NCBI RefSeq assembly: GCF_004364325.1 | Contig: NZ_SOCP01000003.1 | Span: 682,001 to 746,000, forward strand | Direction of reading: 5' to 3' | Length of the DNA stretch: 64,000 bases | Source: Actinophytocola oryzae | GTDB taxonomy: Bacteria; Actinomycetota; Actinomycetes; Mycobacteriales; Pseudonocardiaceae | Shown here: positions 32,405 to 42,731 of the stretch, piece by piece | Numbering within the stretch: position 1 is the stretch's first letter | Layout of the letters: each line of letters begins with the position of its first letter | Position numbers and translations under genes: made by a program | Notes under the pieces: generated by a model | What the model saw: only the letters and a program-made list of their open reading frames with translations | The model's database searches: none | What the model was told of the DNA's origin: nothing

Positions 32405-35400
32405 TCAGGCGCGGGCGCGCCTGCGGCCTCCGGCGGCTCGGGGACGCTCGACCGCCGGGATCTGGTCGTAGGAGTCCTCGGGGCCACCTCGCGCCGAGGG
32501 GACGCCGTAGTCCTCGGGCCTGCCGTGCTTGGGCATGCGGACCGGGGGCATCTCGAGCGAGTCGTCCACGCTGGACATCGCGGGCACGAGCCGGACACTG
32601 CTCAGGGCGGGGTCCGCGTCGCGGCGCCGCCGTGCCGGCGGGCGGCCGAACTCGGGCGTGAGGTCCTCGGCGCGGTGCGCCGCACGGCGGTCGTCGGAGA
32701 CGGGCTTCACCACGGTGTCGAACGAGTCGTCCGCGGCACGCCGCGACCGGCCGTTCGTGGCGGCGCCGTTCGTGCGGCTCACCGCGGGCAGGTTCGAGAA
32801 CGAGTCCGACGCACCGAGACCGGGCTCGGAGATCATCGTCGCGAACGAGTCCTCCGAGACGAGGCTCGGCTCGGAGATCATCGTGTCGAACGAGTCCTCG
32901 GACGGCCTCGACGGCGGCAACGCGGGGAACGGGTCCTTGGGACCGCGTGCGCCGTTGGTGCGACGAGCGGGCGGCATGCCGCCAGACGACGCCTCGGGAC
33001 GCACGGCGGGCAACCGGCTGAAGGAGTCCTGCGGCGCGCCGTTGGTGCGACGCGCTGGCGGCATGGCAGGCGACGACGCCTCGGCACGACGAGCAGGGGG
33101 CATGCCCGCGGACGACGCCTCGGCGCGACGGGCAGGCGGCATCCCGGCCGACGAGGCCTCGGCGCGGCGAGCCGGGGGCATCCCGGCCGACGACGCCTCC
33201 GCACGACGGGCAGGCGGCATCCCGCCGGAGGACAGCTCGGGACCGCGTGCGGGCGGCAGCGCACGGAACGACGCCTCTGCCGCGCCACGAGCGGGTGGCA
33301 TGCCCGCGGACGACGCCTCAGCGCGGCGCGCGGGCGGCATACCCGAGGAGGAAGCCTCGGCACGACGCGCCGGGGGCATCCCGGCCGACGACGCCTCCGC
33401 ACGACGGGCGGGCGGCATGCCCGGGGAGGAAGCCTCCGGCCCACGAACCGCTGGCAGCGCGCGGAACGAGTCCTGCGGTCCGCGTGCGGCGGGCATGCGG
33501 CCGAACGAGTCCTCGGGACCACGCGCGACCGGCGTGCCGTTCGCGCCCCGCCGGATCGGCGGCATGCTGCTGAAGGAGTCGGCAGGGCCGCGGGTCACCG
33601 GCGGCATCGCGCCGAAGGAGTCGGCGGGACCGCGTGGCGGCACGTCGGAGAAGTCCGGCGTCCGCACGTGCCCGTTGGCGTCGAGCAACGCCATCTGGCC
33701 GGTAATGTCGATGGCCATCCCGGAGTCCTTGCCGACACGCCCGGCGAGCGGCTCGGGGATGCCACGCACGTCGGTCATCTCGGCGGCTGTGAACTCCGGC
33801 ATCCGGGGTAGGGGGTCGTGGGCGGGCGGCGTGTGGCCGGTGGCCGGGCCGAGCGCGGGACGGCCGTTCGGGGGCGGGGCGCCGAACGAGGTCGCGGGTG
33901 CGCCGTTGTGGGCCCTGCCGTTAGGGGTGTGGCCGTTGACGGCGGGGAAGGTGCCGCTGCCGGACACGCCCTCGCCGAACGCGTTGATCGGGGTACGCGG
34001 CACGGCAGGCGGGATGGGGAACGGGCCGCTGGTCGACGGGCGGCTCAGCGGGCCGGACACGTGGACCGGGGTGCCACCGGCGACGGGAAGCGTGCGCCCG
34101 CCGATGGGCACGGGGCCGCGCCCGTTCGGCGGCGGGGTCGCGTTCGGGGGGCGGACCGCGACGGGGAGCATGCGGCTGAACGAGTCGACGACGGTCTTCG
34201 GTCGGCCGCCGCCGGGCACGTACCCGGCACCGACGCCGATCGGACCGCTGATCTCGACGGGCACCGGGGGCGGGGGCTGCTCGACGAAGCCGATCTCGTG
34301 CTCCTGGCGCTCCTCGCGCTGGAACTGCTTGCCCTGCGGCGGTGCGGAGTGCTTGCCCGGCAGCTTCTTCTTCGAGAAGGACCCGCTCGTGGCGCCGGAA
34401 CTGGCGGTGACGAGCGGACGGGCCGGTGCCTCGGCGTCCACGCTGCGGCGCGGCTCGGGGTTCTGCCTGCTGACGCTCTCGGCCCACGCGATCATCGCCG
34501 AGGGGCAGTCGACGCCGACCACGCCCATGAGCCGGCCCTCCTGCGAGAAGCCGTAGACGGTGCCGGTGCCCTCGTCGGGGGTGCCGAGCTTGACGATGTC
34601 CTTGCCCAGCTTGAGCATGCCCGCGGCCTGGATGCGGAAGCTGTACTGGTCGGTCCAGAAGCGCGGCATCGGCGTGAACGGCTGCGCGGCGGCTCGGCCT
34701 GCCAGCAGGTTCTCGGCGGCGGCGCGGCCCATCTCGACCGCGTTGAGCCAGTGCTCGACGCGGCGGGGGACGTTGTCGAAACGCAGGTTCGGCCACTGGG
34801 CTACGTCACCGGCGGCCACGACGTCCTCGGCGCCGACCACGTGACAGGTCGGCTCGCACACGACGCCGTTGTCCAGGGGCAGCCCGGAGCCGCGTAACCA
34901 GTGGGTCATCGGCTTGGTGCCCGCGGCGAGGATCACGCAGGACACGAGCAGGCTGCTGCCGTCGGTGAGCTTGAGGGTGATGCCCTCGGCGCCCGGCGAC
35001 CACTGCTCGACCGAGTTGCCGAGCGCCAGGTCGACGCCGTGCTCGCGGTGGGTGTTGGTCAGCCACTCGCCGAGGTCGGGGCCGAGCACGTTGCCGAGGA
35101 GGTTCTTGCCCCGGCCGATGAGGGTCACCTCGCGGGACAGGTGCCGCAGGCTCGCCGCCAGCTCGCAGCCGGTGAACCCACCACCGATCACCGCGACGCG
35201 GCCCTTGGTCGAGCCGATGACCCGCTCGAGGTCCTTGCCGTCGGACATCGTCCGCAGCACGAGCACGCGCGGGTCGTGGTAGGGCACCCCGCTCTGGCGG
35301 GTCGCCTCGACACCGGTGGCGATGATCAGACCGTCGTAGGTCATCTCCTCGCCACCGGGCAGTACCAGGGTCTTCTTGTTCGGGATCAGCTGGCGGACCT

Positions 35401-35635
35401 GGGTGCCGAACCGCCAGCGTGCGTTGAGGTCCTCGTAGGCGGGAAGCGTCAGATCGCTGGATCTCAGCTCACCTTTGAGAAGCTGCTTCGACAGTGCTGG
35501 TCGATGGTAGGGCGGCAGCTTCTCGTCGCCGAGGATGGTGATGTCCCCCTCGAACTTGAGCTCGCGGAGCCGTTCCGCCGCCCGCAGGCCCGTGAGCCCG
35601 CCGCCGACGACAACGATCCGTTCGTCCCGGTTCAT
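32405..35635 (-). CDS. Ferredoxin-reductase-like FAD oxidoreductase with a ~680-residue repetitive tail
   Basis: 1076 residues. Residues 1-395 are a pyridine-nucleotide-disulfide-type reductase: FAD site VVVGGGLTGLRAAERL, LIIATGVEA, NAD(P)H site VAVIGGGFTGCELAASL (149-165), and AGDVAQWPN (FAD, ~275). No redox-active CxxxxC is present, as in ferredoxin/rubredoxin reductases. Residues ~396-660 are Pro/Gly-rich, and 668-1060 carry about 23 copies of a short unit of form (E/A)-(D/A)-S-(F/S)-x-x-(M/L)-P spaced by Arg-rich linkers (PPARRAEASSAGMPP and relatives). The tail has no signal, Cys or membrane helix and should be disordered and basic. The start overlaps the cytochrome/ferredoxin gene stop by four bases, so electrons probably flow NAD(P)H to FAD to that ferredoxin. 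Fusion length is far above the ~400 usual for the family. Confidence 0.88.
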   Translation of the reverse strand: MNRDERIVVVGGGLTGLRAAERLRELKFEGDITILGDEKLPPYHRPALSKQLLKGELRSSDLTLPAYEDLNARWRFGTQVRQLIPNKKTLVLPGGEEMTYDGLIIATGVEATRQSGVPYHDPRVLVLRTMSDGKDLERVIGSTKGRVAVIGGGFTGCELAASLRHLSREVTLIGRGKNLLGNVLGPDLGEWLTNTHREHGVDLALGNSVEQWSPGAEGITLKLTDGSSLLVSCVILAAGTKPMTHWLRGSGLPLDNGVVCEPTCHVVGAEDVVAAGDVAQWPNLRFDNVPRRVEHWLNAVEMGRAAAENLLAGRAAAQPFTPMPRFWTDQYSFRIQAAGMLKLGKDIVKLGTPDEGTGTVYGFSQEGRLMGVVGVDCPSAMIAWAESVSRQNPEPRRSVDAEAPARPLVTASSGATSGSFSKKKLPGKHSAPPQGKQFQREERQEHEIGFVEQPPPPVPVEISGPIGVGAGYVPGGGRPKTVVDSFSRMLPVAVRPPNATPPPNGRGPVPIGGRTLPVAGGTPVHVSGPLSRPSTSGPFPIPPAVPRTPINAFGEGVSGSGTFPAVNGHTPNGRAHNGAPATSFGAPPPNGRPALGPATGHTPPAHDPLPRMPEFTAAEMTDVRGIPEPLAGRVGKDSGMAIDITGQMALLDANGHVRTPDFSDVPPRGPADSFGAMPPVTRGPADSFSSMPPIRRGANGTPVARGPEDSFGRMPAARGPQDSFRALPAVRGPEASSPGMPPARRAEASSAGMPPARRAEASSSGMPPARRAEASSAGMPPARGAAEASFRALPPARGPELSSGGMPPARRAEASSAGMPPARRAEASSAGMPPARRAEASSAGMPPARRAEASSPAMPPARRTNGAPQDSFSRLPAVRPEASSGGMPPARRTNGARGPKDPFPALPPSRPSEDSFDTMISEPSLVSEDSFATMISEPGLGASDSFSNLPAVSRTNGAATNGRSRRAADDSFDTVVKPVSDDRRAAHRAEDLTPEFGRPPARRRRDADPALSSVRLVPAMSSVDDSLEMPPVRMPKHGRPEDYGVPSARGGPEDSYDQIPAVERPRAAGGRRRARA
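32756..33634 (-). repeat. In-gene tandem repeat array (codons ~668-960)
   Basis: The DNA encodes repeated 12-15 residue units; the tightest block (codons ~733-865) is a 39-base unit for AEASSAGMPPARR with small variations. Reading frame is kept throughout, so copy-number change by recombination would alter tail length without frameshift. Confidence 0.85.
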
Positions 35636-36477
35636 CGGGCACGTACCTCCTGCAACTGGATTGCCTGCATCGGGCAGGACCGGGCTGCCGCCTGCGCCTG
35701 TGCGCGGCTCGCCGTGTCGGGGTCACGGACGTAGCGCAGCCGTCCGTCTTCCATGAGTTGGAACAGTTGTGGCGACTCTGCCTGGCAGATCCCGTACCGC
35801 TTGCACCGCTGGTTGTCCACGCTGACCTGCACCTTCCGGCCCATCCGCGGACCGGGTGGCGGCGGTGTGGCTACCGCCAGCTGGGTCTCGGCCGCGGCAG
35901 GCGCACCAGCGAGCAGGCCGGCGCGAGTCAGGATCCTCGGCGGTAGGAACCGAAGGATAGTCAGTGTGACCGCCGGTGTCAGCACCGTGATTCCGCCGAG
36001 CCACAACAGACCGAGGTGTCCGTTGTGGATGGCGCCGAACCACGAGTGCACGACCGTCATGCCGACCGCGGGGTAGGCGAACTGGTGGAACCGCAGCCAG
36101 CGCCGGTAGCGGATGAAACGCCGCAGGCCGGTCGAGATGAGGATCGCGGTCATCAGCTCGAGGCCGAGGATGCCCATGGTGTGACGAAGCTGACCGCCGA
36201 AGGGCACCGTGATGCCGAAGAGGTCGAGCCCCTGCTCGCGGAGCAGGAGGAACACGATCGCGTGGGTGAAGCCGGTCGCGATGGTGAACGTCGCCAGGAT
36301 CATGTGGCCCGAGCGGATGGCCTGGTGGCCGGTCAGCCTGCGGATCCAGCCGGTGTAGGTGAACACGCCCCAGCAGAGCGTCAGGCACATGAAGACGTAC
36401 GACAGGCGCGCTGAGAGGGCCGCGACCTCACGAATGCCGATGTCGTGCTGTGGCAGTGCGACGACAACGTCGATCAT
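35632..36477 (-). CDS. Membrane cytochrome-b/ferric-reductase-like protein fused to a 3Fe-4S-type ferredoxin
   Basis: 281 residues. Five membrane helices lie at ~22-42, 59-79, 100-120, 129-151 and 156-178, with His 58, 72, 99, 131, 144 and 151 as possible haem ligands; the arrangement resembles ferric-reductase-like/YedZ-type domains. A linker (190-212) leads to a ferredoxin module: Cys225-x5-Cys231 and Cys268-Pro in RCKRYGICQAESPQLFQL and ARSCPMQAI, the three-Cys pattern of P450-associated 3Fe-4S ferredoxins. The fusion ties a soluble ferredoxin to a membrane electron carrier. Its stop and start overlap both neighbours by ATGA, so it forms one unit with DUF4142 (upstream) and the flavoprotein (downstream). 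Confidence 0.88.
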   Translation of the reverse strand: MIDVVVALPQHDIGIREVAALSARLSYVFMCLTLCWGVFTYTGWIRRLTGHQAIRSGHMILATFTIATGFTHAIVFLLLREQGLDLFGITVPFGGQLRHTMGILGLELMTAILISTGLRRFIRYRRWLRFHQFAYPAVGMTVVHSWFGAIHNGHLGLLWLGGITVLTPAVTLTILRFLPPRILTRAGLLAGAPAAAETQLAVATPPPPGPRMGRKVQVSVDNQRCKRYGICQAESPQLFQLMEDGRLRYVRDPDTASRAQAQAAARSCPMQAIQLQEVRAR

Positions 36478-37199
36478 TCCGCCGTCCCGTGTGCGCTGAA
36501 GGTGCGGACGATGGCGATCGTGGCCGCCATCATCAGGGCCGCCACCACGGCGGCGAGCATCAGGTCTCCACCTGACAAGTGGTTCTCCGGGGTGTTGTAG
36601 GTCCGTGCGCCGGCCTCGGCGAACATGCCGTGCTGTGCGTCCACGTCACCCGTGGCCTCCAGCAGGGTCATGTGCCGCATGACGATCGTGTTGGCCTGCG
36701 TCGCGAAGTCGCGGATGACCGTGTTGCGGGTCCCGGCGCGTACCTCGGCGATCAGCCCGAAGACCGTGCCGTGTGCGGCACGCAGGCGGTCGGCGAAGAC
36801 CTTGTCGAAGTCGTCGTCGGAGGCGGCCCGGATCTCGTCCATCCACTTCGCCGTCGACGAGGAGGGCTTGTCCGGCAGCTGCGCGCCGAACTGGCCGGCC
36901 AGCTGCTTGATGGCCACGTCGAGCTTCGTGTGGTCGGCGTTGATCGTCTTGCCGGCCGCGCGGACCTTGTCGGTCTGTCCGCGTTCGACGGCGAGCTTGC
37001 CCATCGGGATTTCCCAGAGGTTGGCGAACCGAATCACCCTGAGGAACTCGCGGTCGAGGCTGGACAGTGGTTGTTGTGCGCTCTGTTGGACCACCTGGGG
37101 CTGCGCCTGGCTGGCCACGGCGAAGCCCACTGCTGGGCACGCCGCACCGAGGATCACCAGGAACGAGGCCGCGATCCATCGAACAAATCTGCGTCGCAT
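36474..37199 (-). CDS. Exported DUF4142 protein with C-terminal membrane anchor
   Basis: 241 residues. An N-terminal signal (residues 1-30, RRRFVRWIAASFLVILGAAC) is followed by a ferritin-like helical DUF4142 domain (LSSLDREFLRVIRFANLWEIPMGKLAVERG; TINADHTKLDVAIKQLAGQFG) and a final membrane segment (~210-232). DUF4142 proteins are outer-surface four-helix bundles of unknown role, often with conserved His/Glu suggestive of metal binding. First gene of the three-gene DUF4142/cytochrome-ferredoxin/flavoprotein operon. Its promoter should lie in the 435-base region that carries the CRP-type and GAACC palindromes. Confidence 0.88.
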   Translation of the reverse strand: MRRRFVRWIAASFLVILGAACPAVGFAVASQAQPQVVQQSAQQPLSSLDREFLRVIRFANLWEIPMGKLAVERGQTDKVRAAGKTINADHTKLDVAIKQLAGQFGAQLPDKPSSSTAKWMDEIRAASDDDFDKVFADRLRAAHGTVFGLIAEVRAGTRNTVIRDFATQANTIVMRHMTLLEATGDVDAQHGMFAEAGARTYNTPENHLSGGDLMLAAVVAALMMAATIAIVRTFSAHGTAE

Positions 37200-37518
37200 G
37201 ATTTGTTACCGCCCGCGTTTCAGTTCTTTTCCGTCCCTATATGTGACGTTAATGTTTTCGCGGGCATGGAGTCGCTGTACTCACTGCTCGGACCTTCGCG
37301 CAGCTGGCAGCCACCGAGGAGGAGCCCGAAGACAGTTACCAGTACAGCGAACCCGGCAACTCTAGAGCCACGCATCCTCATGGATGAACTCCTCTGCAGT
37401 AGATATCAGAACGATTACGCTACGTCAAGCGTTTTGTTGCAGGCACGCGTCGTTGCAGGTGCTACCGGTATATACGTTTGATAACGACACACGCGTTCAG
37501 TTCACTCAGCGGTAGATA

Positions 37519-37534
37519 TGTGACGTGGGTCACA
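37519..37534. promoter_or_regulatory. CRP/GlxR-type binding site
   Basis: TGTGA-CGTGGG-TCACA is a perfect match to the TGTGA-N6-TCACA consensus of CRP/GlxR-family regulators. It lies 320 bases before the DUF4142 start and 101 before the small gene at 37635. Binding is inferred. Confidence 0.65.
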
Positions 37535-37619
37535 TCACCCGGTCGGGCGATCAAGTTCGTCAGGGGTCCAGCCGATAAAGCGCAGGTCCCGGGCTGTTCA
37601 GTAGCGTTCAGTAGCGGAT

Positions 37620-37634
37620 GCGAACCAGGTTCGC
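37620..37634. promoter_or_regulatory. Palindrome GCGAAC-cag-GTTCGC
   Basis: Perfect 6-3-6 inverted repeat ending directly at the ATG of the 37635 gene. Its core GAACCAGGTTC matches GAACCGGGTTC at 39277-39287 upstream of the sigma factor gene, so both probably bind the same regulator. Confidence 0.5.
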
Positions 37635-37880
37635 ATGACGGAGAGCCTCGGCGGCCCCCGTCGGGCAGGCGGCTCCGTACAGTACCTCCGCGTCGAACGC
37701 ACCGACGAAGGCCCATATCCCCTGGTCGTAATGTCCCGATACGGGCTGAAAGTGACCATCGTCTGCCCGCCCGCACACGCGAAGGCCGAACGGGACGCGC
37801 TCCACGGTCAGACGGACCGGAGCGCACGGCAGCGGGACCACGCCACGCTGCTGGGACCGGCCTCGAAGACCGGTCGCTGA
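37635..37880 (+). CDS. Small hypothetical protein on the opposite strand inside the redox island
   Basis: 81 residues, beginning MTESLGGPRRAGGSVQYLR, with a central beta-like stretch YPLVVMSRYGLKVTIVCPPAH and a basic tail. GC3 in this frame is high and higher than in the competing minus-strand frame over the same bases, which is my reason for choosing it. No ribosome site is clear; the palindrome at 37620-37634 abuts the start, so a leaderless or repressed transcript is possible. No family recognised. Confidence 0.4.
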   Translation: MTESLGGPRRAGGSVQYLRVERTDEGPYPLVVMSRYGLKVTIVCPPAHAKAERDALHGQTDRSARQRDHATLLGPASKTGR

Positions 37881-37925
37881 GGAGAGAGAGCCTGACGCGG
37901 TGGGCACACGGCCCACCGCGAACGG

Positions 37926-38639
37926 CTAGATCGGAACGCTTACTACCTCTTCGGCGTTCGCACCCATGGTCTCGATGGTGATGGCCTTGACGTCGTCGGG
38001 CGAGACGAGCGCCATGCCGGCCAGGCGGCTGCGCTTCGCACCCTCCGCCGAGACCTGCCAGGTGCCTGCCAGCACCTTGTCACCCTCTTTGGAGATGACG
38101 TACAGCGCACACGGCTTTCCCTCCGGCAGGCCGGTTGCCGTGGCGTCCACCCACACCCAGCCCTTCTTCGGCTCCAGCGCGACGTTCATGGTCGCGCCGG
38201 TCTCCGAGTCGGTGGCGTCGGCGATGCGGGCGTTGGACGGGGTCGTCGCGACGGTGAACGTCGGTCCGGCCACGTTGTCCGTCGGCGCCGTCTGCCTGCC
38301 GAGCACGATGCCACCGCCGAGTGCCACGACCACCGCCGCGGCAGCCGCGACGTACACGCCGGTCATGCGCCTGCGTGGTGGTGCCGCGGCCTCGGTCTCG
38401 GTGGCGACCCTGCGCAGCGTGCGCCGCAACAGCAGGTCGCCGTGCTCGGGTGGTCCGTCGAGGAACGCCTCCGGCGGCACCTGGTCGAGTGCCCGCCGGA
38501 TCATCATGAGCTCCTGCACCTCACGCTGACACTCACGGCAGCCGTTGAGGTGGTCGTGCACCATCCGCGCCTCGGCCGGATCAAGTGCGCCGATCGCGTA
38601 CGCGCCGAGCTGTGCCCGGTCGTGCGCTGGTCCGCTCAT
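37926..38639 (-). CDS. Zinc-finger anti-sigma factor with RskA/RslA-like exported domain
   Basis: 237 residues. The anti-sigma zinc motif H-x3-C-x2-C is at His30, Cys34 and Cys37 (VHDHLNGCRECQREV), then a membrane helix (~93-114, VYVAAAAAVVVALGGGIVLG) and an extracytoplasmic domain of RskA/RslA type (GWVWVDATATGLPEGKPCALYVISKEGDKVLAGTW split over two strands). It should hold the ECF sigma factor encoded just upstream inactive until a redox or envelope signal causes release or proteolysis. Its start overlaps the sigma stop (ATGA at 38636-38639). Confidence 0.92.
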   Translation of the reverse strand: MSGPAHDRAQLGAYAIGALDPAEARMVHDHLNGCRECQREVQELMMIRRALDQVPPEAFLDGPPEHGDLLLRRTLRRVATETEAAAPPRRRMTGVYVAAAAAVVVALGGGIVLGRQTAPTDNVAGPTFTVATTPSNARIADATDSETGATMNVALEPKKGWVWVDATATGLPEGKPCALYVISKEGDKVLAGTWQVSAEGAKRSRLAGMALVSPDDVKAITIETMGANAEEVVSVPI

Positions 38640-39205
38640 CGCCGCACCTCCCCCGACTGACCCAAGGACTGCGCCAGCTGTGCCCGCAGCGCGCGGACCG
38701 CGTGGTATGTCCTCGATTTCACGGTGCCGGGGGCGATGCCCAGCACAGCGGCTGTCTCGTTGACAGTCCTGCCACGGTAGTAGAGCTCGACGAGCACCGC
38801 CCGGTGCTCGGCTGACAGGCCGTCGAGAGCGCCCATCACGGTCATCGTGTCGACCACCGTGTCCGCGTGGTCACGCTGTGCGGCTGGGACGTCGACCGGC
38901 TGGTTGACCTCCATCGGCCGCACCGCACGGGCCCTGGCCCGGTCGGTGACGAGGTTGCGGGCCACCGTCAGCAGCCACCCGCGAACCGAGCCGACACCTG
39001 AGCGCAGCGCGTCCGCGTGTTTCCACGCCCGCAGCAAGGTCTCCTGCACGACGTCCTCTGCCGCCGCACGGTCGCCGGTCAACCTGGTCGCGTAGTCCAG
39101 GAGGCTCCGGCCGTGCTCGGCGTAGAGGGACTTGATCAGGTCTTCGGCCGGGTTCCCAGCGGCTACGCGCCGAGAACGTCGTCCGATCATTGCCACGGCC
39201 GCCAT
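38636..39205 (-). CDS. ECF sigma factor (SigL/SigK-like)
   Basis: 189 residues from ATG 39205, with GGGCAGGT close upstream; ATG 39190 is an alternative. Region 2 is seen as LIKSLYAEHGRSLLDYATRLTGDRAAAEDVVQETLLRAWKH and the -10 recognition helix SVRGWLLTVARNLVTDRAR; region 4 is LSAEHRAVLVELYYRGRTVNETAAVLGIAPGTVKSR. It belongs with SigK/SigL-like ECF factors that pair with RskA/RslA-type anti-sigmas, as here. It is the likely regulator of the redox island. A GAACC palindrome (39275-39294) precedes it. Confidence 0.92.
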   Translation of the reverse strand: MAAVAMIGRRSRRVAAGNPAEDLIKSLYAEHGRSLLDYATRLTGDRAAAEDVVQETLLRAWKHADALRSGVGSVRGWLLTVARNLVTDRARARAVRPMEVNQPVDVPAAQRDHADTVVDTMTVMGALDGLSAEHRAVLVELYYRGRTVNETAAVLGIAPGTVKSRTYHAVRALRAQLAQSLGQSGEVRR

Positions 39206-39274
39206 CACCTGCCCGATTGGCCGGTCGATGAGCAGGGTACTTGAAGCAACTTCGCTCACGACAGGAACACGAGT

Positions 39275-39294
39275 GTGAACCGGGTTCGGTTCAC
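39275..39294. promoter_or_regulatory. Palindrome GTGAACC-gggttc-GGTTCAC upstream of sigma factor
   Basis: Seven-base perfect arms; the left part GAACCGGGTTC also reads as a GAAC-N3-GTTC palindrome like the one at 37620. It overlaps the stop codon of the double-Rieske gene and lies about 70 bases before the sigma start. Confidence 0.5.
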
Positions 39295-40106
39295 GCCAAC
39301 GAGATCTGATTCCCGGACACCTTAACGGCACGCGCCGACAGTGGTGCAGTGGCGGGTCCCTGCGAGACCGACCCGTCCAGCTTGAACTTGCTGCCGTGGC
39401 ACGGACAGTTGATGGTGCCCCCGGAAACCTGGTCGACAATACAGCCCTGGTGGGTGCAGACGGCCGAGAACGCCATGAACTTGCCCGCGCTGGGCTGTGT
39501 CACGACGATCTCCTGGTCGGCCAGGATCTTGCCGCCCCCGACGGGTACCTCCGCCGTGGACGTGAGGGCCTTCCCGCCGCCGCCCGGTGGCGCGGTGGTG
39601 TCCGGGGCCGTCGTCTCCGGCGCGGTCGTCTCCGGCGCCGTGGTCTCCGGCGCGGTCGTCTCCGCGGGAGGTGCCGCACCGCCGGTGACCAGCTCGCCGT
39701 ACTCGTTGACGCTCACCGCGGCAGCGGGCAGCGGCTGTGTGGCGGGGCCGGTGTCGACCGCGCCGTCCAGCTTGAACTTGCTGCCGTGGCACGGACAGTT
39801 GATGGTGCCGTCGACGATCTCGTTCACCACGCAGCCCTGGTGCGTGCACACCGCCGAGAAGCCCTTGAACTGCCCGGCTTCCGGCTGTGTGACGACGAGC
39901 TTCTGCGCCTCGAAGATCTTGCCGCCGCCGACCGGGACGTCCGCGGCCTTGCCGAGGACCTCCCCGTCCTGCTGCGTCGTGGTCTTCTCACTGCCCGCCG
40001 CCCCCTCGTCGGGGAACTGTGGACCGCCGTAGCGGGCACAGGCGGCACATGCGGCGCCCACGGCTACGAACCCCACCGCGGCGCGGCGGGGGATCTGCTG
40101 TGTCAT
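39291..40106 (-). CDS. Exported protein with two tandem Rieske [2Fe-2S] domains
   Basis: 271 residues. A Tat-like signal (PRRAAVGFVAVGAACAACA, 6-24) precedes two nearly identical Rieske modules. The first has C-T-H at 87-89, Cys92, Cys104 and Cys106-His107 (CTHQGC and CPCHGS); the second repeats this at 217-219, 222, 234 and 236-237. Both therefore keep all four cluster ligands and the disulfide pair of high-potential Rieske proteins. A five-fold ETTAP-type linker (149-173) joins them. It should carry two clusters on the outer face of the membrane, next to the DUF6529 membrane protein encoded just upstream (one-base spacing). Two-cluster Rieske proteins of this kind are unusual. Confidence 0.92.
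   Translation of the reverse strand: MTQQIPRRAAVGFVAVGAACAACARYGGPQFPDEGAAGSEKTTTQQDGEVLGKAADVPVGGGKIFEAQKLVVTQPEAGQFKGFSAVCTHQGCVVNEIVDGTINCPCHGSKFKLDGAVDTGPATQPLPAAAVSVNEYGELVTGGAAPPAETTAPETTAPETTAPETTAPDTTAPPGGGGKALTSTAEVPVGGGKILADQEIVVTQPSAGKFMAFSAVCTHQGCIVDQVSGGTINCPCHGSKFKLDGSVSQGPATAPLSARAVKVSGNQISLA
39588..39662 (-). repeat. 15-bp repeats encoding the ETTAP linker
   Basis: Five consecutive 15-base units encode E/D-T-T-A-P between the two Rieske domains. Multiples of three keep frame, so the linker can change length. Confidence 0.8.
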
Positions 40107-40107
40107 G

Positions 40108-40836
40108 TTAGAAACTCACCCCGTACTCGGAGAAGAACCACAGGGAGGACGTCACCCACAGGCCGACGAGCCCGGTGAACACCGCGGAGCCGACGACGGG
40201 CAGCACCCAGCCGGGCGTGCGCGAGCGGGTCAGGACGACCATCTTGCAGACGAACAGGCCGTAGAAGAAACAGCCGAAGAGCGAGTGCAGCAGCACCCGG
40301 GTGTCGAAGGTCTGGAAGCCGAGCGCGTAGAGACAGTGTGCGGCGACCGGCAGCGAGACGATGACCGCGATGCGGCCCGACCAGCGGTGCATGACGGCGG
40401 TGCCGTGGCCCGCGGTCCAGCCGGGGAGCCTGCCCCACATGGCCATCGCGGACAGCACCTGGACGATCGCGAGCACGACGGCCACCGAACCGAGCCACGC
40501 CTTGGCGGCGATGCCACTGGAGAAGCCCGCCAGGTTGAGTGCCTCACCCGTCGGCTCGTGCATCTTGCCGTACGCACCGAGTGCGATGGCCACGAGCGCG
40601 CCGATCGCCAACGCCGCGATGACGCCACCGATGCCGCGTTGTTCGTGGTCCGGCTCCTCGTCGTCGAAGGACAGCGCGGGCACGTTCGTCGCGGTGACCC
40701 ACTGCTGGCCCTCGTGCGTCGGGAAGCCGGTCTGCGAACCCGGGACGGGCTGGGTCAGGTCGGGAAACTCGTTCAGGTCGGTCAGGTCGTGGTCCGGGGG
40801 TCGCCCGCTCGGCCCGAAATCAGGCGGCAAGGTCAT
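40108..40836 (-). CDS. DUF6529-type multi-pass membrane protein
   Basis: 242 residues. An acidic cytoplasmic N-terminus (~1-68) is followed by about five membrane helices (IAALAIGALVAIALGAYG; SVAVVLAIVQVLSAMAMWG; IAVIVSLPVAAHCLYALG and two more). Conserved His in HGTAVMHRWSG and AAHCLYALGF and the H-S-L-F-G of helix four resemble a cytochrome-b561-like haem site. The gene is one base from the Rieske gene and probably passes electrons to or from it. DUF6529 itself has no proven role; this link is inferred from operon and His pattern. Confidence 0.82.
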   Translation of the reverse strand: MTLPPDFGPSGRPPDHDLTDLNEFPDLTQPVPGSQTGFPTHEGQQWVTATNVPALSFDDEEPDHEQRGIGGVIAALAIGALVAIALGAYGKMHEPTGEALNLAGFSSGIAAKAWLGSVAVVLAIVQVLSAMAMWGRLPGWTAGHGTAVMHRWSGRIAVIVSLPVAAHCLYALGFQTFDTRVLLHSLFGCFFYGLFVCKMVVLTRSRTPGWVLPVVGSAVFTGLVGLWVTSSLWFFSEYGVSF

Positions 40837-40923
40837 CGGAAGTCTCCTGTCGTGCTACCGGAACGGACCGCCCCGGCACCCTCTTTCGCATGGCGTCGAA
40901 GTGGGTTCCCCCGCGGAACCCGC

Positions 40924-41652
40924 TCAGCCGAAACTGGTCTCGCCCGTGACCTTCTGCGCAGGCACGAACTTGCCGCCGACGGTAGCCCCACCCTTTGCCG
41001 GGTCGAGCGCGGGTGCGGCCGCCTCACGGTTGCCCGTGCGCGTGATGCCGACCTGCTTGCCGCTCGGCAGGATGATCCAGCCGGTGGTGGTCTCGCCGTT
41101 CTCGCCTCGGTAGAGGCCGGCGGGCGGCGGTGCGACGACGATGCTGAACTCGTGCGGCACGCCGCCGATCATCAAGGCGCCCTTGAGCGCGTTGTCGGCG
41201 TCGAGCCGGCCGGTCAGCGTGTTCGCGCCGTCCTTGGACGAGAGCTCCATCGTGCCGTTCTCGGCGGAGCCCTTGAGCCACGACTCGACCGCGGCGCCGT
41301 CGCACAGGTACGCGGAGGCGTCCGTGCCCTTCACGGCGACCGCGATGTAGAGCGGGCTGTCGACGGTCTTGCCCGCGTAGACGGCCTCGGCCGGGAAGGC
41401 CGGACCGGGCGGCGGCGCCTTCGTGGTCGGGACGTCACTCGTCTCGACCGGCGGCGGTGCCGTCGTCGTGGGAGCCGGCACGCCGTTGTTGGCCGGCGGC
41501 GGCGGTGGTGTCTCGGTCTGTGTAGCCCCTGCCGGTGACGGTGTCGGCGATGGACCAGCCGCGACGAGTCCTCCCGCCGCGTTGGCCGTCATCAGGCCGA
41601 CGAGGCCACCGACCACCACAACCGCGGTGACCAGGGGACCGCGCTGCGCCAT
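40924..41652 (-). CDS. Exported Pro-rich protein of unknown function at the head of the Rieske operon
   Basis: 242 residues from ATG 41652 (AGGAGA five bases upstream). A signal or membrane anchor (~7-30) is followed by a Pro/Thr-rich spacer (41-90) and a ~150-residue soluble domain with AVYAGKTVDSPLYIAVAVKGTDASAYLCDG, WLKGSAENGTMELSSKDG and TTTGWIILPSGKQVG, which reads as a beta-rich fold. One Cys remains in the mature part. No family recognised. It is the first gene of the Rieske/DUF6529 block and may be its surface partner. Confidence 0.78.
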   Translation of the reverse strand: MAQRGPLVTAVVVVGGLVGLMTANAAGGLVAAGPSPTPSPAGATQTETPPPPPANNGVPAPTTTAPPPVETSDVPTTKAPPPGPAFPAEAVYAGKTVDSPLYIAVAVKGTDASAYLCDGAAVESWLKGSAENGTMELSSKDGANTLTGRLDADNALKGALMIGGVPHEFSIVVAPPPAGLYRGENGETTTGWIILPSGKQVGITRTGNREAAAPALDPAKGGATVGGKFVPAQKVTGETSFG

Positions 41653-41806
41653 GTGCTTCTCCTGTTCGTACGTCAGCAACGAGAATGAGCCACCCGCCCG
41701 CTTGCGAGATACACGTACCGACGCCTGGCGCGGTTCATTGCCCGAAGGTCCGTCCTTCGGGTCGGCCCGGCGTGACCAGGGCGCACACGTCCCCGCGGGG
41801 TCGGTG

Positions 41807-42688
41807 TCAGCCGGCCGCGCCGAGCTGGGTCACCTGCGTCAGCGCGACGTCGACCGTCCTGACCGGGTCGGTGATCGGGAACTGGACCGCCCGGATCGTC
41901 CGGTCCGGGTCGACGATCATGGTCAGGCGCTTGAGGCGGTCGACGCCGGAGGCGCGGAACGTCGGCAGCCGCAGTGCGGCGGTCAGCGTCAGCTCGTCGT
42001 CCGACAGCAGCGGGAACGGCAGGTCCACGTGCTCGGCGAACGCACCCAGCTCGTCGGTGCGCTGGGTGCTCAGCCCGTGCACCGTCGCGCCGAGCGCCCT
42101 GAACTCGTCGTAGCGGTCGCGGTAGGTGGTCGACTCCAGCGTGCAGCCCGCGGCGCCCGGGATGTCCCCCCAGTCCGGCGGGAGCGGGTTCCCGACCGGG
42201 ACGAACGCGCCGGGGAACGCGTACAGCACGGTCCACGACCGGCCGACCGGGTCGAGGAGCTCGCCGTCGTCCGCTGCCACGCGCAGTTCGGGGACGCGTC
42301 TGCCGACAAGGCCCCGCACCCGCCGCGCCTCGGCCGAGGACGGGGCGGTGGTGGCGGACAGCGAGCCGTCGCCGGACACGTGGCGGGTGCCCCAGTCCTG
42401 TAACGCGATGAGCACCGGCAGCAGGCCGTGGCCCTTGTCCGTCAGGCGGTACTCGAACCTCGGCGGGCGCGCCGAGTAGTCCACCTTCTCGACGATCCCG
42501 TTGGCCACCAACGCCTTCAGCCGCTCGGTCAGCGTCTTGCGGCTGACGGCGAGCGCCCGCTGCAGGTCGTCGAACCTGACGGTCCCGCCCGCGATGTCCC
42601 GCACGACCAGCAGCGTCCACCAGTCGCCGACGACGCCGAGGGCCTGCGCGATGGCGCAGTCGGCGTCGACCAGTTCGCTGTGCTTCAC
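41807..42688 (-). CDS. Fusion of HxlR regulator and peroxiredoxin
   Basis: 293 residues from a GTG at 42688. Residues ~1-110 are an HxlR winged helix (CAIAQALGVVGDWWTLLVVRDIAGG; FDDLQRALAVSRKTLTERLKALVANGIV); residues ~135-293 are an AhpC/TSA peroxiredoxin (VLYAFPGAFVPVG, then GAAGCTLESTTYRDRYDEFRALGATVHGLS). The C-T-L-E-S-T-x-x-R-D motif keeps the peroxidatic Cys; the usual resolving Cys five residues later is Thr, so it is 1-Cys. It may be a transcription factor that senses peroxide through its own Prx domain, or a Prx recruited to DNA. It is divergent from the MFS gene, with an inverted repeat between. Confidence 0.87.
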   Translation of the reverse strand: MKHSELVDADCAIAQALGVVGDWWTLLVVRDIAGGTVRFDDLQRALAVSRKTLTERLKALVANGIVEKVDYSARPPRFEYRLTDKGHGLLPVLIALQDWGTRHVSGDGSLSATTAPSSAEARRVRGLVGRRVPELRVAADDGELLDPVGRSWTVLYAFPGAFVPVGNPLPPDWGDIPGAAGCTLESTTYRDRYDEFRALGATVHGLSTQRTDELGAFAEHVDLPFPLLSDDELTLTAALRLPTFRASGVDRLKRLTMIVDPDRTIRAVQFPITDPVRTVDVALTQVTQLGAAG

Positions 42689-42731
42689 GTCCGTAACCCT
42701 CTCGCTTCGGGGCCCTCGTGCCAATAGAGTG

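Follow-up and report, generated by a model that had tools for sequence, protein, structure and literature searches.

Does a cluster of redox genes around its own sigma factor gene constitute one electron-transfer system, or do separately evolved systems meet at one place? This question is raised by a region of the Actinophytocola oryzae genome lying within the 64,000-nt stretch of DNA analysed here (the window, whose positions are used as numbering throughout), in which open reading frames combined with Pfam and NCBIfam domain calls gave nine genes within 32405-41652, all on the minus strand. A first interpretation made from the letters alone (the sequence-only reading) had described these nine genes as a single trans-membrane electron-transfer module with its own extracytoplasmic function (ECF) sigma/anti-sigma pair. 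The genes, their common strand and their domains stand, the ninth gene being that of a 53-aa lipoprotein, but their unity does not, since two parts, here called modules A and B, are found apart from each other except in Actinophytocola algeriensis. We propose that the region consists of a SigL/RslA-type switch placed between two separately conserved membrane redox modules, belonging to a SigL-type regulon that deploys cell-surface electron transfer, an explanation to which we give about an even chance of being correct.

Two modules conserved apart from each other

Module A comprises the genes for an exported beta-barrel protein, a DUF6529 membrane protein and a Rieske lipoprotein, and module B those for a DUF4142 protein, a membrane domain/ferredoxin fusion and a TodA-like NAD(P)H reductase of flavin adenine dinucleotide (FAD) type. 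With the fusion protein and DUF6529, 150 genomes of the order were searched and 37 neighbourhoods were retrieved, onto which the window proteins were mapped; this was extended with a scan of 80 DUF6529 loci in named actinobacterial genomes and a sample of 297 genomes of the class. Within the order, DUF6529 loci showed the succession exported protein - DUF6529 - Rieske and lacked the remaining window genes, and fusion loci mostly showed DUF4142 - membrane domain/ferredoxin - reductase without DUF6529, often accompanied by an ECF gene and by DUF1996 and Lipoprotein_15 genes. Many genomes of the window's own family carry the module B genes without DUF6529. Module A was kept in 77 of the 80 named loci (exported protein in 79, Rieske in 77) and the complete arrangement of the window in one, that of A. 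algeriensis, where A and B are contiguous; in four further species of Actinophytocola the corresponding place holds only module A. As judged from gene neighbourhoods, modules A and B are each conserved independently of one another and, because only 1/80 named loci has the full arrangement, their juxtaposition is local to this lineage. The conserved neighbourhood in related genomes by which the sequence-only reading was to be judged was thus found for each half, and not for the set as a whole.

These comparisons bear directly on the possibility of one integrated nine-gene chain, leading from NAD(P)H over FAD, a 3Fe-4S cluster and membrane haem to an external Rieske protein, with the sigma pair as dedicated regulator. 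The common strand, the tight spacing within A and within B and the order shared with A. algeriensis fit such a chain, but module A occurs without B in 79/80 named loci, B without A in many family genomes, and the sigma clade with either module or with neither. A single system was rejected on the comparison of the 37 neighbourhoods and 80 named loci, and we consider the chain improbable; its supposed end point, the Rieske protein, belongs to module A, mostly found without reductase, ferredoxin or haem genes. On the level of whole genomes, DUF6529 was present in 60 of the 297 class genomes and a fusion-type protein in 8. All 8 of these also carry DUF6529, and 7 of the 150 genomes of the order carry both modules (about 2 expected), counts that were not used as evidence since they cluster in few families.

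The sigma/anti-sigma pair and its promoters

Compared with solved ECF factors, the sigma factor scored 129.6 bits against SigL (E 1e-36) and 54.6 bits against SigE, the next full-length match, and it exceeded the cut-off of the NCBIfam model PRK09645. RslA (3hug_B, E 8e-4) is the best solved relative of the anti-sigma factor, in which an HxxxCxxC motif (His30, Cys34, Cys37) is present, as it is in 7/7 aligned relatives. By sequence the sigma factor is SigL-like, and the ECF pair noticed earlier in the middle of the region can now be specified as SigL/RslA-like, with promoter evidence linking it to module A. With the SigL-RslA pair of Mycobacterium tuberculosis it shares, besides these relationships and the motif, the adjacency of both genes and promoters with TGAACC and a CGTG at -10. 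The targets differ: those known for M. tuberculosis SigL are its own operon, pks10-pks7, Rv1138c-Rv1139c and others, whereas here a DUF6529/Rieske module and surface proteins are concerned. RslA is redox-sensitive, losing its zinc and forming a disulfide upon oxidation, by which its sigma factor is set free (PMC2877774), and M. tuberculosis requires SigL under low iron, the target behind the low-iron growth defect of sigL mutants not having been identified (PMC10449499). Members of the same sigma clade (54-68% identity) accompany module A at eight Pseudonocardia loci and in Labedaea and Hoyosella, and the clade elsewhere adjoins module B-type or Lipoprotein_15/DUF1996 genes; the pair is the bridge between modules A and B.

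Of 92 regions upstream of the exported-protein gene, 48 contained TGAAC-N15..18-CGT, where order-1 resampling led us to expect 2.2. TGAACC with a spacer of 16-17 nt (mostly 16) and CGT precedes module A in 40 of 93 loci, compared with a mean of 0.37 and a next best count of 10 in a permutation set of 1080 motif pairs, the real pair among them. The N16 form also precedes 23/32 SigL-like genes (permuted-motif mean 0.13), and the TGAACC-CGT element was seen before 2/22 other ECF genes and 11/23 Lipoprotein_15 genes; in the window, an autoregulatory TGAACC + CGTG element lies before the sigma gene. The longer -10 form, CGTGT, agrees with the -10 element measured for SigL (PMC6372665). Of the loci that bear the motif at module A, 11 have a SigL-like gene next to it, and all 11 show CGTGT; of the other 29, 5 show it. 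Four of these five belong to Actinophytocola, where a 79-81% identical sigma gene, itself preceded by TGAACC-N16-CGTGT, is encoded elsewhere. Micromonospora has CGTACC at module A, and Mycobacterium and Nocardia have CGTTG; because of these -10 forms, sigma factors of other than the SigL type are likely to act there. SigL-type promoters, as recognised by their motifs, precede the sigma gene and module A, and the switch apparently turns on at least one of the two modules.

The regulon in the window's genome was predicted by pattern search only, which gave 17 sites for TGAACC-N16/17-CGTGT and a single one for the reversed control. Among the genes that begin shortly after such a site are the sigma gene, the first gene of module A, a Lipoprotein_15 gene and, as assigned by eye, genes for a cutinase-like, a protease-like and a secreted repeat protein; several other sites are inside genes and probably due to chance. 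At three loci (L264, L265 and L284), one of them in the window's genome, Lipoprotein_15 (COG4315) genes adjoin SigL-like genes or carry the CGTGT form, and these are likely members of the same regulon.

Predicted electron carriers

In the membrane domain of module B, His58/72 and His131/144 are invariant in 21/21 homologues, with the pair spacing of 14 and 13 that is known from NADPH oxidase (NOX) enzymes. The profile of the membrane part touches SpNOX (E 0.015), and Pfam Ferric_reduct reached 19.9 bits, under its gathering cut-off of 28. Where NOX enzymes and ferric reductases carry a fused FAD/NAD(P)H domain, this protein has a C-terminal [3Fe-4S]-type ferredoxin, and the TodA-type reductase has a gene of its own; because that fused domain is absent, the membrane domain is said here to work like NOX and is not filed as a member. 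The ferredoxin part matches P450-type ferredoxins, and Cys225, Cys231 and Cys268-Pro are kept in all full-length fusions (CKRYGIC and SCP, Cys invariant in 12/12). Its C-x5-C ... C-P pattern has Tyr replacing the second cluster Cys, a trait of [3Fe-4S] ferredoxins, and by motif the domain would be of the [3Fe-4S] P450 type.

The reductase exceeds the cut-offs of both Pyr_redox_2 and Reductase_C and matches TodA (E 5e-50) as well as putidaredoxin reductase. It has in common with TodA, BphA4 and putidaredoxin reductase the family and the pairing with a small iron-sulfur protein, and differs from those systems in that a membrane-bound haem domain would receive the electrons in place of an oxygenase or P450, and in its long repetitive tail, of which a comparable one was seen only in A. 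algeriensis. That some relatives have one gene for the membrane part and another for the ferredoxin, both next to the reductase gene, speaks for a functional unit. DUF4142, described as ferritin-like (PMC11317620), is a conserved neighbour of the fusion genes in the neighbourhoods of the order. Outward electron flow from NAD(P)H through module B is the natural reading of these predicted cofactor sites. A second copy of module B in the same genome (C3:348807-349689) has its membrane and ferredoxin parts in separate frames, beside DUF1996 and another ECF gene. At three other loci (L068, L069 and L203) the membrane haem, ferredoxin and reductase parts apparently form one protein of about 830 aa, and these loci adjoin DUF1996, DUF4142, Lipoprotein_15, a CAP-domain protein and a SigL-like pair.

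Two alternative functions of these parts have to be weighed. Module B could be a split NADPH oxidase that makes extracellular superoxide and is not a metal reductase, the ferredoxin replacing the fused flavin domain. Its NOX-type His spacing and weak SpNOX similarity agree with this, but the acceptor is not readable from sequence, and the ferritin-like DUF4142 and the low-iron link of SigL suggest a metal, making such an oxidase rather unlikely in our view. MsrQ has a related haem membrane domain, and the modules might similarly repair or fold exported proteins in the manner of MsrPQ, a membrane haem part feeding a periplasmic reductase that mends oxidised residues. That predicted regulon members are secreted proteins speaks for such a function, but the conserved neighbours scanned contained no MsrP-like or thioredoxin-like partner, and we regard this function as very improbable.

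In module A, DUF6529 is predicted to be a five-helix membrane protein (predicted local distance difference test score, pLDDT, 72), with His93, His150 and His184 invariant in all homologue sets and a fourth His, two Cys (C168, C189) and one Met also invariant in the closer set. Its earlier description as cytochrome-b561-like was not confirmed: its profile matched none of the solved structures, and a fold search gave generic helical bundles only, cytochrome b561, b6 and STEAP1 being matched without standing out. DUF6529 might alternatively be no cytochrome at all; its conserved His and Cys would then be ligands of a metal or quinone, and the partner of the Rieske protein would be a different one. 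The missing sequence and fold match and the invariant C168 and C189 besides His are in line with this, but the conserved operon with Rieske and the invariant His set in a five-helix membrane protein argue against it; we consider it somewhat unlikely, and haem in DUF6529 plausible.

The Rieske protein has a twin-arginine-type signal and a lipobox, and CTHQGC and CPCHGS boxes in both of its domains; together with the His pairs and ferredoxin cysteines of module B, the cofactor motifs of the sequence-only reading are borne out. The boxes are of the high-potential type and b6f-type Rieske proteins are the closest solved relatives. As in the Rieske subunits of cytochrome b6f/bc1, both boxes contain the disulfide cysteines; unlike these subunits, the protein is a lipoprotein, with two domains in Actinophytocola, and its operon partner in conserved neighbourhoods is DUF6529, not cytochrome b as in the bc1/b6f complex. 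The double Rieske occurs in all five named Actinophytocola loci and a single one in the other homologues examined. In another family, two separate Rieske genes near DUF6529 (L237, L238 and L239) represent an independent route to a paired Rieske.

The exported protein matched no Pfam family. Its conserved domain was modelled by AlphaFold 2 with pLDDT 95.8, and the first half of this model aligns with the barrels of NHBA (Z 11.9), haemophilin (Z 9.9) and TbpB (Z 9.3), surface proteins of iron and haem capture, a likeness of fold only, the Foldseek E-values not being significant. Because of this likeness and the low-iron need for SigL in M. tuberculosis (PMC10449499), we favour for module A, a putative haem/Rieske relay, the proposal that it serves the redox chemistry of iron or another metal at the surface. 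More specifically, and with somewhat less than even confidence, DUF6529 may be a new family of membrane b-type cytochromes, forming with the Rieske lipoprotein and the TbpB-like surface barrel a minimal electron carrier across the membrane, which about one in five of the sampled class genomes would possess and which would be induced via SigL-type and related ECF factors under oxidant or iron stress.

In the proposed SigL/RslA-type switch, an oxidative or metal-linked signal would cause the anti-sigma factor to lose its zinc, or to be cleaved in the membrane, upon which the freed sigma factor would transcribe the operon that encodes it, together with module A and further genes for surface proteins. 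Module B would carry electrons from NAD(P)H over FAD, the ferredoxin cluster and two stacked membrane haems to the outside, where Fe(III) or Cu(II), oxygen or an exported redox protein would most likely accept them and DUF4142 could be a metal-binding partner. Module A would be a second carrier, in which DUF6529, if haem-bearing, exchanges electrons with the surface Rieske lipoprotein. Here we infer the electron path, the acceptor, the haem in DUF6529 and the control of module B.

Several points weigh against this explanation. The Hoyosella anti-sigma factor is without the zinc cysteines, so zinc-based sensing is not universal, and Kribbella possesses a SigL-like gene yet has a different -10 form at module A. 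The promoter counts are not phylogenetically independent. Module B lacks a convincing SigL-type promoter, its TGAACG-N17-CGTATA falling outside the enriched pattern, and this weak candidate is not claimed. No relation between DUF6529 and any known cytochrome could be detected, and the Rieske protein, of high potential, and the neighbouring reductase chain, of low potential, do not have to lie on the same path. Cofactors, expression and activity are all predictions from sequence.

Novelty and features of the region

No published description of the set was found, in agreement with the earlier statement that it corresponds to no named system, and neither module seems to have been described before. 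Literature searches on ECF19 with Rieske, DUF4142 with Rieske and COG4315 gave nothing relevant, and none of the papers searched mentioned DUF6529. The region is an arrangement of known domain kinds that is itself new, with a new, testable regulatory link. DUF6529, an unstudied family, is thereby placed in a conserved operon for which promoter and regulator are predicted, and SigL-type regulons are extended to membrane redox modules. A SigL-linked surface redox system in relatives would offer one testable answer to the missing low-iron target of sigL (PMC10449499). It would moreover be unusual for a NOX-like haem core to receive its electrons from a ferredoxin and a TodA-type reductase.

Features of the region, with positions in the window
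Feature	Position	Strand	Remarks
SigL-type promoter of module A, TGAACC-N16-CGTGT	41712..41737	-	upstream of exported-protein gene
Exported protein: signal/anchor, Pro/Thr-rich linker, conserved beta domain; module A gene 1	40924..41652	-	
DUF6529 membrane protein, putative b-type cytochrome; module A gene 2	40108..40836	-	PF20139, E 5e-72
Twin-arginine (Tat)-type lipoprotein with two Rieske domains; module A gene 3	39291..40106	-	PF00355, two stretches
SigL-type promoter of sigma gene	39268..39293	-	its TGA is the Rieske stop codon
SigL-like ECF sigma factor	38636..39259	-	NCBIfam PRK09645 over cut-off; M. tuberculosis SigL, E 1e-36
RslA-like zinc-type anti-sigma factor, one membrane segment	37926..38639	-	zf-HC2 over cut-off; RslA 3hug_B, E 8e-4
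Possible weak ECF-like promoter of module B, TGAACG-N17-CGTATA	37474..37499	-	conservation in A. algeriensis only
53-aa lipoprotein, lipobox LGGC	37220..37381	-	counterpart in A. algeriensis, E 2e-9
DUF4142 exported protein, C-terminal membrane anchor; module B	36474..37199	-	PF13628, E 1.5e-22
Bis-haem-type membrane domain fused to [3Fe-4S]-type ferredoxin; module B	35632..36477	-	
TodA/putidaredoxin-reductase-type NAD(P)H:FAD reductase; module B	34406..35635	-	Pyr_redox_2 + Reductase_C
666-aa Pro/Ala/Arg/Ser-rich repetitive tail of reductase	32405..34405	-	39-bp tandem repeats

Including its tail, the reductase gene extends over 35635-32405, and a gap of about 545 bp separates the anti-sigma gene from that of the 53-aa lipoprotein. 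A scan of the region for sigma-70 promoters and terminators gave results at about chance level. Directly upstream of module A, an HxlR-type regulator is fused to an AhpC/TSA peroxiredoxin domain (41807-42697, minus strand); it was rejected as a member of the system, not being kept beside module A elsewhere, and is in itself an unusual fusion.

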